From contig NZ_CP007035.1 of assembly GCF_000243115.2 (NCBI RefSeq), positions 868,001 through 932,000 of the forward strand: a stretch of 64,000 nucleotides of DNA, in the 5' to 3' direction. The DNA comes from Niabella soli DSM 19437 (GTDB taxonomy: Bacteria; Bacteroidota; Bacteroidia; Chitinophagales; Chitinophagaceae). Shown piece after piece: positions 25,606 through 58,728 of this stretch; positions within the stretch are counted from its first letter, which is position 1, and the number at the start of each line of letters is the position of its first letter. A program made the translations under genes and the position numbers. The notes under the pieces are model-generated. The model made no database searches and was not told the origin of the DNA. It saw only the letters and a list, made by a program, of their open reading frames with translations.

Positions 25606-25678
25606 GCGGAAGTAGCTCATCTGGTAGAGCGACAGCTTCCCAAGCTGTAGGTGGCGGGTTCGAGTCCCGTCTTCCGCT
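25606..25678 (+). tRNA. tRNA-Gly (anticodon CCC)
   Basis: A full cloverleaf in 73 bases without encoded CCA. Acceptor GCGGAAG pairs with CTTCCGC, D stem GCTC/GAGC, anticodon stem ACAGC/GCTGT with loop TTCCCAA, T stem GCGGG/CCCGT with loop TTCGAGT, discriminator T. Anticodon CCC reads the glycine codon GGG. Confidence 0.97.
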
Positions 25679-53817: not shown

Positions 53818-54852
53818 ATGATCAAAATTGAGAAATTGGCTGGCTATATGCGGGAAAAATACCGCTTTGGGTGGATGGGTTGTATCTGTATATTTAGTGT
53901 TTGCTTTCAGGTGCAGGCGCAAAAAGCGGGTATAATCCATCCCGGAGCCGCGTGGCCGGACCAGAAGGGCAACCCTATCCAGGCCCATGGAGGCGGCATT
54001 ATTAAAATCGGAAAAAACTATTACTGGTATGGGGAAGAAAGGCGGCAGGGATTAGATAGTAATTATCGTTATGTTAGTTGTTACAGCTCCGCAGATCTGG
54101 TGAACTGGAAATTTGAAGGCGATGTATTGCAACTATCCGATCCTGAAAACCTTGGCCGGCATTGGGTTCTGGAGCGCCCTAAGGTTTTTTACAACAGGCA
54201 AACGAAAAAATATGTCATGTATTTTCACCTGGACGATGCCCGGTACAAACTGGCGCGCGTTGGTATAGCAGTGAGCAATACGGCAACCGGTAATTTTAAA
54301 TATGTAAAAAGTTTCAGGCCGCTCGGACATGAAAGTCGTGATATAGGCCAGTTTATTGATGACGATGGAGCAGCCTACCTGGTGTTTGAAGATCGCCCTA
54401 ATGGATTCCATATTGCCAAACTTTCGGCTGACTATATGGATGTGGAGCGGGATATGAGCCTGATACCCCAGCACATGGAAGGCGGAGCCATTGTGCATTA
54501 TAAAGGTTTGTACTATGCTATTGGCTCGGCATTGACGGGCTGGAATCCCAATCCCAACAAATATGCCATTGCAAAAAAACTGGAAGGACCCTGGAGCCCG
54601 TTTGAAGATATAGCCCCACCCGCAGTAAAAACCTACGGGGCGCAATCTACCATGCTTTTAAAAATAACGGGATCTAAAACAACCACGGTTTTATTTATGG
54701 GCGATCAGTGGAAACCCAAAGCCCAATGGGATTCCCGTTATTTATGGATGCCGCTGGAAATAGGTAATGGGAAATTATGGCTGCCCGAACCCCGCTCTTT
54801 TTCGTTAAATGTAAAAACCGGCGAAGCGGTGCTTCAAAAAGACAGGGAGTGA
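53818..54852 (+). CDS. GH43-like glycoside hydrolase
   Basis: A 344-residue secreted protein with signal peptide (hydrophobic about 18-32, cleavage near VQAQ). The motif PIQAHGGGIIKIGKNYYWYGEE (split: IQAHGGGI, NYYWYGEE) is characteristic of GH43 subfamilies 24 and 34, which hold exo-beta-1,3-galactanases and beta-galactosidase-like enzymes, rather than of classical arabinanases. SADLVNWKFEG, LERPKVFYN and EGGAIVHYKGLYY supply the five-bladed propeller. The expected Asp base is not in the usual place, in common with those subfamilies. Galactan side-chain trimming is the best guess. Confidence 0.88.
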   Translation: MIKIEKLAGYMREKYRFGWMGCICIFSVCFQVQAQKAGIIHPGAAWPDQKGNPIQAHGGGIIKIGKNYYWYGEERRQGLDSNYRYVSCYSSADLVNWKFEGDVLQLSDPENLGRHWVLERPKVFYNRQTKKYVMYFHLDDARYKLARVGIAVSNTATGNFKYVKSFRPLGHESRDIGQFIDDDGAAYLVFEDRPNGFHIAKLSADYMDVERDMSLIPQHMEGGAIVHYKGLYYAIGSALTGWNPNPNKYAIAKKLEGPWSPFEDIAPPAVKTYGAQSTMLLKITGSKTTTVLFMGDQWKPKAQWDSRYLWMPLEIGNGKLWLPEPRSFSLNVKTGEAVLQKDRE

Positions 54853-54942
54853 AAAGCTCCTGATATTTTCACATATGCCCTGATTTGGATCGATTATTGT
54901 ACTGCTTTGTATTCCAAATAGTTCCTAACAAAATCTATTGCC

Positions 54943-55437
54943 ATGAAGTATTGGTTATTATTGATTACGGCAATACCGTTTTGGGCCTGCAATGCCCCGG
55001 ATCAAAATACTGCGTCCTTACAACGGCAGATAGATAGTTTGCAAGCCCGGATAAATAAGGCCTATAAGCCGGGATTTGGTGAGTTTATGAGCGGCATCCA
55101 GGTGCATCACAACAAACTTTGGTTTGCGGGAATCAATCAAAACTGGGCACTGGCTGATTTTGAAATTAACGAGATAAAAGAGAGCCTGGACGATATCAGA
55201 ACCTATTGTACCGACCGGCCGGAAACCAAATCTATCGGGATGATTGATGCGCCACTTCAAAATATTGCTAATGCGATTCAACAAAAAAATGACACCGGGT
55301 TTAAAAGTGCTTTTAAGGTTTTAACCGCCACCTGTAATACCTGTCACCAGGCAACGCAGCATGGCTTTAATGTAATTATAATCCCCTCCCTGCCTCCGTT
55401 CTCCAATCAGGAGTTCCGCTTGCAGGACAAAAAATAA
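54943..55437 (+). CDS. Lipoprotein with one c-type haem motif
   Basis: A 164-residue lipoprotein (signal MKYWLLLITAIPFWAC, lipobox PFWAC). A short coiled coil (LQRQIDSLQARIN) is followed by a helical domain (HHNKLWFAGINQNWALADF, then EIKESLDDIRTYC) and one CNTCH haem motif near residue 128. The fold resembles four-helix cytochromes. Its job in the carbohydrate operon is not obvious; 90 bases separate it from the GH43-like gene and it may be independently transcribed. Confidence 0.8.
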   Translation: MKYWLLLITAIPFWACNAPDQNTASLQRQIDSLQARINKAYKPGFGEFMSGIQVHHNKLWFAGINQNWALADFEINEIKESLDDIRTYCTDRPETKSIGMIDAPLQNIANAIQQKNDTGFKSAFKVLTATCNTCHQATQHGFNVIIIPSLPPFSNQEFRLQDKK

Positions 55438-55511
55438 ATAGTATTAATGAAAAACCGGTTCTGCCAGAATTTCTCCAAATTTTGCCATTAGCTTCGCATT
55501 TAAATAGTCGT

Positions 55512-56186
55512 ATGAAACTGCTGATAGTGGAAGATGAACCGGATCTGTTGCAAAGCATCCTGGAGTACTTTACCCAGGAAGACTTCTTATGTGAGGGAGT
55601 GGCTACTTATTTTGAAGCAATTGCTAAAATTGAGGATTTTGACTATGATTGTATTATCCTGGACATTAACCTGCCGGATGGTAGTGGCTTGAAGCTGCTG
55701 AAATACCTCCGGGAGGACAAAAAGCAAGACGGCGTAATAATCATCTCTGCCCGCAATTACATCGATGACAAAATTGAAGGACTGAATCTTGGAGCGGATG
55801 ATTATTTAACCAAGCCCTTTCATCTTTCAGAATTATATGCGCGGGTAAAAGCGCTCATGCGCAGAAAATATGGGCAGGGGGCTAGTCAATTGGAATTGGG
55901 CAATCTTCAACTGAATCTTTCTTCCCGGTGTGTTGCCTGTCATCAGCAGCCTTTAATGCTCACCCGAAATGAATATGATCTGTTGGCCTTTTTACTAAAT
56001 AATAAAAACCGGGTAGTGAGCCGGCAGGCAATAGCAGAACATATCTACGGCGACCGCACGAATCGAATGCCCTCATTTGATTTTGTGTATTCACAAATAA
56101 AAAATCTCAAACGCAAACTAAAAGAGGGAGAGTGTGATGATCTTATTCAAACAGTTTACGGATTGGGGTATAAAATTTCGATATGA
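55512..56186 (+). CDS. OmpR/PhoB-family response regulator (orphaned)
   Basis: A 224-residue regulator from ATG 55512; the in-frame ATG at 55482 adds 10 residues before the conserved MKLLIVEDEP. The receiver has the acidic pair VEDE, phosphoacceptor D51 in ILDINLPDG, and K101 in LTKPF; the winged-helix domain (LMLTRNEYDLLAFLLNN, then VYSQIKNLKRKL) follows from about residue 130. The overlapping downstream gene should be its histidine kinase, but that gene is cut off after 19 codons. Confidence 0.95.
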   Translation: MKLLIVEDEPDLLQSILEYFTQEDFLCEGVATYFEAIAKIEDFDYDCIILDINLPDGSGLKLLKYLREDKKQDGVIIISARNYIDDKIEGLNLGADDYLTKPFHLSELYARVKALMRRKYGQGASQLELGNLQLNLSSRCVACHQQPLMLTRNEYDLLAFLLNNKNRVVSRQAIAEHIYGDRTNRMPSFDFVYSQIKNLKRKLKEGECDDLIQTVYGLGYKISI

Positions 56187-56242
56187 GCAAACCTCTCTTA
56201 CACCGTAATTCAAGAGCATTGCTGATATGGCTGCCAATATGA
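56183..56242 (+). pseudogene. Histidine kinase gene, truncated to its first 19 codons
   Basis: The ATG overlaps the response-regulator stop (ATGA), the usual coupling for a regulator-kinase pair. The 19 residues MSKPLLHRNSRALLIWLPI look like a kinase N-terminus entering its first membrane span. The frame then stops at 56240 and the sequence is already that of a nuclease gene from about 56224. Confidence 0.7.
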
Positions 56243-56630
56243 TCCCGCAGGCGCCTCAAAACAACCAGCGCACCTGGAATGATTTGGAAACATATATCAG
56301 GAGCCAGGTGACGGCGGGGCAGGAGGTCTATATTATTACGGGCAGCTATGGCCGCCTGGGTACCATTGATGCCGGACATATTGTAATACCCTCGAATATT
56401 TGGAAAGTAGTGGTCTTTCTTAAAAACGGGAATAATGACCTGAAGCGGATCAATGCGGGCACAAGAGTGCTGGCGGTAAATACCCCAATACAAAAACAAT
56501 TAATGCCGATTGGAAAAAATATATTACTACCGTTAGCGTCATTGAAAAAAATACGGGCTACAAGCTGTTATCGAACCTGAATAACCGTACCCGGCAAATT
56601 CTCAGAACGAAAAAAGATACAGCTTTATGA
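56224..56630 (+). pseudogene. DNA/RNA non-specific endonuclease gene, 3' part, frameshifted
   Basis: From about 56224 the reading frame gives MIPQAPQNNQRTWNDLETYIR, split here as NMIPQAPQNNQ and TWNDLETYIR, then VYIITGSYG, VIPSNIWKVVVFLKNGNND and GTRVLAVNTP; these are the C-terminal blocks of secreted NucA-type nucleases. The N-terminal half with the DRGH catalytic motif is missing. A frame change within the A-rich run at 56486-56498 leads to a second frame that continues the family sequence (INADWKKYITTVSVIEKNTG) to the stop at 56628. It is therefore truncated and frameshifted. Confidence 0.85.
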
Positions 56631-56802
56631 CACGGGAGCCTGTTTCATTTTTGACTCCCGGCAATGGAAGAAGCCTGGTGTGTAGCAACGGTACAACAAC
56701 AAAATTGCAGTTTATTCGATCCGGTTTTAATTTCCCGTAAAAGCGCATTAATGAAATAAAGATCAGGAAGCGTAACTGCCGGCAGAACAAGGCTCTTTTT
56801 AT

Positions 56803-58728
56803 TTACTTATCTACTTGTATAAAAGTGAACATCCATTTTACCGGGTTTTCCCAGTTTTTCCCTTTAAAGCTACCTGCCGGAGCTTTAATTAAGATATGGT
56901 TCCACCCCTTTTTTAAATGTATTAAGGTAGGCAGCCGGTAGGAATAGCCTTCATCAATCAAAGGGGTTTCAGGATTGCCTTTTGCGCCGCCCCGTTTCCA
57001 ATGGGGTGGTGCAATGGGTTGGCCATTGACCCAAACCCGGCTTTCCCTGGTATCCCATTTCCCAATGGGTGGGCTGTCTGTGGCCGGAGAACGAGATATG
57101 TCGTTGAACCCAATCCAGAATTTTTTGATCCCTGCCGCATTGCACCAGATCCTGGTAGTGGCATACACTGTGGTGCTGTCTTTGGGATGATCGATAGCTC
57201 CTTCTATCAGGGGCGCCCACCAGTGTCTCAAAATAATGGTGCCACCCACCATCTGTTTAAATGGATGCGGCAGCTTTACTGATAACTCCGGTTCAAACTT
57301 TTCTGAAAGTTGACCGTTATTGTCGTATGGCCCGTAAAGATCCCAGATGCTGTTAGCCTGTTTCACATAGGGGAAAGGCTTGTTTGAAAAATAAAAAGCC
57401 TTATGCGCCAGTAAAATGGTCTCAAACCTGGCAAAGGACGCTGTTCTTTTTTCTCCGGGAGAACCTATATTGGATTGCCAGTTTTTAATGCCGCCTCCGT
57501 TCCAGGTACGTTCCGCGAAGGCCAGCATTCCGGGATAAACCGCGTTCATTTTAAAGGCATCGTTTTCGTTTTCCAGTCTCCTGTCTGGCCAAAGGCAGAG
57601 TGTTGCCCCTTTTATATTTTTATCTTCTTTAGGAATATCCCCGATCTCCCTGTAAAAAATAGTAGTAACGGTTTCCAGCGGATCCATATGATTCAGGTAG
57701 AGATGCCGGGAGTCGATAAATCGGAATCCCCGGGTAGTATCCAGAGGCTCCCGCATCCACATTTGCCGGATGGTACGGTCTCCGATATTGCCTCCGGGGC
57801 TCCATCCCACTGTTTTAATTCCTTTCTGTTCCAGCAACGCTGTTATCTCGGGAAGGAAATTTTTGTTCGTGATCTTTACTTCATCACCGCCAATATGCAA
57901 ATATTCAGGGTGATAAGTAGCTATAAACTCGTTAAGTAATTCTTTTACAATTTTTGTTCCGCTTTCTGATTGCATGGTGGTGTGGAAGACCCGGGTGAAG
58001 GCCGCGCTATGCCCCGGCATGTCTATTTCAGGAAGGAAGAGGATATTTCGTTCGCTGCAATACTGCATGAGCTCTTTTATTGCGGCCTCAGAGTAAAATT
58101 TGCCAGGATTACGGGTCATATTCGTTGCGGCGTTCAATTGTGGATATTTTTTACTTTCGAAACGCCAGGCAATATCTTCGGTTGCATGAAAATGAAAAAC
58201 ATTTAGTTTATAGCGGGCCATCACATCGATCTGTTCTTTTAATTTGTCTATCGACTGATAATTCCGCCCCACATCCACCATATACCCTCTGAAAGAAAAC
58301 GCCGGTGAATCTTTAATGGAACAATAGGGCAGCGGGTGATTCAAATCGATCAATTGTAAGAGTGTCTGTATCCCGTAAAAGAATCCGGGGTTTGCACTGG
58401 CCACTATCCGAACGCCATGAAGGTCAATGGTTAAACGGTATGCTTCCTTGTTTAAAAGGGTTGCGTCTTTTATGAAAAGAATTCCTTTTTCTTTTGAAGC
58501 AGTATTGGTTAAAGCTATTTTCCTTTTTGCAAATTGTGTTACGGTATAATCACACAATGCTTTCTGATCACCTGTCGTAACGCGAACAGTTTTTAATTGG
58601 TGTACGTCCAAATGGCCCTGCTGAATGCTGATCTGCCGGGGTTCCGGAATAATGTTTAAAGAGGATTGCGCCGCAACTGCCAGGAAAAGCAATACAATCG
58701 GAACAATCAACATCAATCTTTTAATCAT
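56803..58728 (-). CDS. GH20 beta-N-acetylhexosaminidase
   Basis: A 641-residue secreted GH20. ATG 58728 starts the signal peptide (MIKRLMLIVPIVLLFLAVAAQ); the in-frame ATG at 58863 gives 45 residues lying in the neighbouring gene. An N-terminal GH20b domain (about 25-138) precedes the barrel: the His-Asp face HFHATED (about 179-185) and the catalytic pair in HIGGDEVK at D282-E283. The last 140 residues form an extra beta-sandwich (RVWVNGQPIAPPHW, WNHILIKAPAG), possibly glycan-binding. It removes terminal GlcNAc or GalNAc. It overlaps the epimerase gene by 8 bases. Confidence 0.94.
   Translation of the reverse strand: MIKRLMLIVPIVLLFLAVAAQSSLNIIPEPRQISIQQGHLDVHQLKTVRVTTGDQKALCDYTVTQFAKRKIALTNTASKEKGILFIKDATLLNKEAYRLTIDLHGVRIVASANPGFFYGIQTLLQLIDLNHPLPYCSIKDSPAFSFRGYMVDVGRNYQSIDKLKEQIDVMARYKLNVFHFHATEDIAWRFESKKYPQLNAATNMTRNPGKFYSEAAIKELMQYCSERNILFLPEIDMPGHSAAFTRVFHTTMQSESGTKIVKELLNEFIATYHPEYLHIGGDEVKITNKNFLPEITALLEQKGIKTVGWSPGGNIGDRTIRQMWMREPLDTTRGFRFIDSRHLYLNHMDPLETVTTIFYREIGDIPKEDKNIKGATLCLWPDRRLENENDAFKMNAVYPGMLAFAERTWNGGGIKNWQSNIGSPGEKRTASFARFETILLAHKAFYFSNKPFPYVKQANSIWDLYGPYDNNGQLSEKFEPELSVKLPHPFKQMVGGTIILRHWWAPLIEGAIDHPKDSTTVYATTRIWCNAAGIKKFWIGFNDISRSPATDSPPIGKWDTRESRVWVNGQPIAPPHWKRGGAKGNPETPLIDEGYSYRLPTLIHLKKGWNHILIKAPAGSFKGKNWENPVKWMFTFIQVDK

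Follow-up and report, generated by a model that had tools for sequence, protein, structure and literature searches.

In the window, the whole 64,000-nucleotide stretch of Niabella soli DSM 19437 DNA that we analysed, an intact response regulator gene is followed by the start of a histidine kinase gene, which runs directly into the end of a secreted nuclease gene. The features at this locus, with the evidence that defines them, are:

54926..55437, + strand: small flanking gene with a CxxCH motif, resembling cytochrome c' weakly (PF01322 below the gathering threshold, E 0.0021)
55512..56186, + strand: OmpR-type response regulator, 224 aa, intact but orphan (Response_reg and Trans_reg_C)
56183..56242, + strand: histidine-kinase stub, 19 sense codons plus stop, with kinase DNA ending at ~56235 (kinase homology and drop of nucleotide identity)
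56234..56238, + strand: junction, CCAAT, compatible with both sides (breakpoint scan and alignments)
56236..56630, + strand: 3' remnant of an Endonuclease_NS (NucA-type) gene, last ~130 codons, without DRGH and frameshifted (PF01223)
56798..56821, no strand: right synteny edge on the side of the GH20 operon (blastn)

The regulator protein matched PF00072 (E 6.7e-27) and PF00486 (E 3.2e-18), which places it in the OmpR type. Residues D8, D51 and S79, whose functional roles we assume, are all there as read from the sequence. The other 20 distinct regulator orthologues share 79 invariant positions, and this protein departs from them at one (S83Y); leaving out each of the other regulators in turn gave from 0 to 3 changes at such positions. 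Its root-to-tip distance was 0.97, in a tree where the range was 0.89-1.26. At the sequence level, the regulator seems free of any sign of decay, a state compatible with either retained use or a recent event.

We identified this regulator as an orthologue of the regulators of an RND efflux operon. In the regulator tree, it groups with Sphingobacterium, Planobacterium, Pedobacter, and Chryseobacterium (local support 0.92), and the top match in each of the 16 other genomes of its own genus reached at most 53% identity. The regulator-kinase efflux cassette was probably acquired horizontally. Two Dyadobacter loci presented a resolvase-like ORF upstream, recognised by eye, and one of them a Tn3 transposase too.

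The kinase ATG at 56183 overlaps the regulator end (ATGA), and the reading frame closes with TGA at 56240-56242. When compared to the kinase N-termini of 13 orthologous loci, the stub shared 10-15 of its 19 residues, the closest start being that of L056 (15/19); when the stub was shuffled 100,000 times, no shuffle shared more than 11 residues with its best-matching kinase among the 13. The same was seen at the DNA level, with 28-44 of the first 57 bases identical to the kinase genes of the 13 loci and 3-10 of the next 33. Against nuclease genes, 12-15 of the 50 bases before position 56236 were identical and 40-51 of the 70 after it, in four of the five loci asked (L086 gave no row). Of the 15 kinase/nuclease pairings in a breakpoint scan, 12 gave 56234-56236 as the best switch point and three gave 56233-56237. 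The stub presented neither HisKA nor HATPase_c, both found in its intact orthologue, the L056 kinase, and it is the remnant of a sensor histidine kinase gene.

The initial annotation described a kinase gene starting by ATGA overlap and cut short, and so it is, with kinase DNA ending at codon 18. It also left about 20 bases before the nuclease, and this spacer does not exist: in the stub, nuclease DNA already provides codon 19 and the stop. That origin of its end bears on the reading of the 19-codon ORF as a genuine small membrane peptide, translationally coupled to the regulator. The kept ATGA start and a hydrophobic stretch (LLIWLPI) would suit such a peptide, but all 13 loci compared have a kinase gene at the homologous start, and we give this reading a practically negligible probability. 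Homologues of the ORF are full kinases instead of complete 19-codon frames, and beyond the junction no intact kinase follows, as far as the assembly can show.

At the junction, CCAAT agrees with the L056 kinase at four of five bases and with the L002 nuclease at all five, the parental sequences being known only from relatives. This would fit microhomology of a few bases at most, and no near-identical parent was found from which its length could be read.

On the nuclease side, the ORF at 56227-56577 matched Endonuclease_NS (PF01223) with an E-value of 4.4e-17 over profile positions 106-192 of 223. Its identity to the nucleases of loci L002, L086, and L087 was 71-73% over 84 aa, and the final 43 aa, which are read in the other frame, were 51-58% identical to the same three. 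Against a 457-aa protein, the remnant covers the part from residue 327 on. It is thus the 3' part of a NucA-type gene, as had been proposed, but it represents about the last 29% and not the C-terminal half. Likewise, the proposed frameshift is real and its place slightly different: the two matching frames abut at ~56483-56495, so the slip lies at a C-run that immediately precedes the A-rich stretch. The remnant stop (56628-56630) is a few residues from the end of intact relatives. The DRGH motif, presumably part of the active site, lies ahead of the remnant start in 11 of the 14 relatives asked, and the other three gave no ORF with DRGH. Lacking this motif and with a broken frame, the remnant is not a complete nuclease. 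One frameshift and no other stop in ~395 bases would be compatible with a recent event.

The frame slip falls at a homopolymer-rich place and was judged from the assembly, and a consensus error could be suspected there or at the junction. We consider an assembly or sequencing artefact very improbable: the genome forms a single 4.70 Mb contig with a completeness of 99.89%, two unrelated genes meet cleanly at the junction, and no separate copy of either missing part was found in the assembly.

In this genome, an orthologous kinase was not found (14 matches, the best at 32% identity), nor was an orthologous pump among 19 matches. The nearest pumps were 59% and 55% identical over the first 500 residues and 45-50% overall to cassette pumps. 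One of the genome's pumps, at ~2157-2161 kb, was considered as a relocated cassette pump and rejected, with 49-50% overall identity to seven cassette pumps; these seven are 63-90% alike among different lineages (the L057/L080 pair, at 98%, is outside this comparison). No second copy of the missing 5' part of the nuclease was retrieved with the 5' part of the genome's own intact gene as the query, whose only match was that gene itself, at 3.86 Mb. With kinase, pump, and nuclease 5' part all unmatched, the material seems lost rather than moved. Since neither an orthologous kinase nor an orthologous pump was found in the genome, the regulator is indeed orphaned, as first annotated.

The intact nuclease at 3.86 Mb (L084 6128-7501, minus strand) is 85-88% identical over its length to those of genomes G003 and G008. 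Over the stretch shared with the remnant, it matched G003 and G008 at 74-78 of 84 residues, whereas the remnant matched all three at 60-61 of 84. The remnant is more distant from all of them and therefore derives from a second, divergent gene, and an intact NucA-type gene remains in the genome.

To describe the operon in relatives, a scan of genome contigs gave 17 loci, 16 of them orthologues at 67-79% identity (L068, at 32%, was dropped). A search of the family, on a sample of 394 genomes that includes this one, gave eight other genomes with regulators at 68-76%. Three of these seem to duplicate L058, L060, and L063 (identical regulator), and the other five, all with the kinase, were G299, G229, G342, G098, and G178. 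The resulting 21 loci are not all independent, as L054/L055, L056/L059, L065/L066, and L057/L080 are near-identical pairs.

An ATGA-overlapped kinase directly follows the regulator in all 21 orthologous loci, and it stays open for 419-425 codons in 20 of them (15/16 in the contig-scan set). The L058 kinase closes early, and in its copy L026 the frame runs for 55 codons. In that locus (L058:5672-8668, a MAG), the broken kinase frame is followed by a DDE transposase gene. The order regulator-kinase-TolC-RND-MFP was complete in the five loci read far enough (L080, L082, L083, L142, and L143). TolC and RND come after the kinase in 16 of the 21 loci, or 11/16 of the contig-scan set, whose retrieved sequence stops within RND.

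TolC and RND were absent or broken in L056, L058, L059, L062, and L063, which represent at most four independent cases (L056 and L059 being near-identical) and were counted beside the regulator only. In Sphingobacterium cavernae (L056:7016-7696), TolC residues 1-158 are fused to MFP residues 287-366, and nothing in the locus matched RND; L063:7015-7397 presented two MFP fragments behind the kinase, with regulator and kinase kept. The fusion and the fragments indicate that deletion scars recur in this efflux operon. The sister group of the window regulator includes two loci with the pump (L052 and L054) and two without it (L056 and L059); thus, the pump of the window genome may have gone before, with, or apart from the kinase.

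Other genes accompany the operon in relatives. Downstream of the kinase, L056, L059, L062, and L063 carry a DUF1259 gene (by Pfam, except in L059, where it was recognised by the likeness of its first residues to L056), and L082, with an intact pump, has one too. Near the operon, ChrB_C or chromate-transporter genes were observed in three lineages (L052:4006-4860, L056:1994-3121, and L063:3310-4494), which suggests a metal-stress island. The L056 kinase (L056:5672-6934) scored 374.9 against a NCBIfam PorY-family cut-off of 350, and its regulator is of plain OmpR type.

Related genomes, proposed at first as a check, offered a full-length kinase where the stub ends (20/21) as well as intact nucleases, but never in one order: regulator, kinase, and nuclease in succession were not found in any locus examined. 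In none of these loci does the operon lie beside a nuclease, and the original adjacency of kinase and nuclease is presumed.

The setting of the scar is a patchwork. The cytochrome-like gene (54943) matched G013 contig 133 at the DNA level over 54926-55415 only; it was found at E<=1e-5 in two of the 16 other genomes of the genus. In G013 it adjoins sigma-factor-like genes, which are ~93 kb away here, and its G013 neighbours sit at 829-830 kb and 528-530 kb in the own genome. On the other side, the GH20 operon matches G013 (88%) from 56798 rightwards and G003 (76%) from 56821, the next genes beside it differ in both, and the gene that adjoins GH20 in G013 is found at 433-435 kb. GH20 was present at E<=1e-100 in 8/16 other genomes of the genus, and GH43 at E<=1e-40 in one of four genomes asked, with its match ending at the contig end in G013. 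From the right synteny edge and the relocated left gene, 54743-56798, between two convergent glycan operons, is a site of patchwork and rearrangement.

These displacements on both sides would also suit another history, in which an inversion, a translocation or end-joining brought a nuclease fragment from elsewhere to a broken kinase. Of the reciprocal products of such an event, however, the genome searches recovered neither the 3' part of the kinase nor the pump nor the 5' part of the nuclease, so material would have been lost anyway, and we regard such a rearrangement as unlikely.

A repeat search for marks of insertion gave only short two-copy repeats, such as 28 nt at 71% at 54780 and 56778, which are likely due to chance. 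The only tRNA of the window is at 25606, and no Rfam matches were found in 54700-57000. Promoter-like patterns numbered 6 against 5.1 expected and terminator-like ones 4 against 2.5. Among viral contigs, the 11 pattern matches included no relative, and 31 plasmid records matched at E<=1e-40, all with <60% identity.

Overall, we favor a deletion that joined the start of the kinase to the tail of the nuclease beside a surviving regulator, with a probability of roughly 80%. The cassette would have had the second, divergent gene for a secreted nuclease as its neighbour. An illegitimate deletion, with microhomology of a few bases at most, would then have removed everything from kinase codon 18 through nuclease residue 326. 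By the sizes seen in relatives, the loss would be at least ~2.2 kb, or ~8 kb if TolC, RND, and MFP were still there, and it may thus also have taken the efflux pump. The nuclease tail has a frameshift as well, and the regulator is still intact. This mechanism rests on the sequences of relatives, because the direct repeats of the parental DNA are invisible in the scar, where a repeat search cannot show them.

The initial annotation's recombination scar, with kinase and nuclease both destroyed, stands as an observation, and its main interpretation is supported. A single deletion joining the two genes is likely; a simple two-gene deletion is not proven, the usual neighbour of the kinase being an efflux operon. 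To that description we add which operon was lost, that an intact nuclease gene lies elsewhere in the genome, that searches did not recover the missing parts, and that some relatives have lost the pump. The locus represents ordinary genome decay, and deletion scars and gene remnants from illegitimate recombination are common in bacterial genomes. A single locus matters little, but for annotators it accounts for two genes being broken and for a regulator left without its partner.

It is doubtful, and we would put it rather low, that the regulator was kept for a job of its own, steering other genes without its partner through cross-talk, small phosphodonors or a phosphate-independent mode. If true, the regulator and not the pump would be the durable part of the cassette, and its true retention in the absence of kinase and pump would offer a case, in nature, of a two-component system being taken apart. 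The pump losses beside related regulators provide a small comparative set on what is kept longest.

Compared to known systems, the remnant resembles the secreted NucA-type nucleases of PF01223, with 71% identity over 84 aa to the intact 3.86 Mb gene, and differs from it in having no N-terminal part or DRGH and in its frameshift. With the Bacteroidota regulator-kinase-TolC-RND-MFP operons (L080, L082, and L143), the locus shares the orthologous regulator and its ATGA overlap with the kinase, whereas the kinase body, TolC, RND, and MFP are missing from the window genome. Orphan response regulators (e.g. PMC6277429) share the lack of an adjacent kinase; here the first 17 codons of the kinase are still in place, and the orphan state is therefore derived. 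Another parallel is with scars of illegitimate recombination (e.g. PMC2884548), which share the sharp switch between two truncated genes, a very short possible microhomology, and lost material that is not found. From these the locus does not differ in kind, although an intact regulator beside the break is a little unusual.
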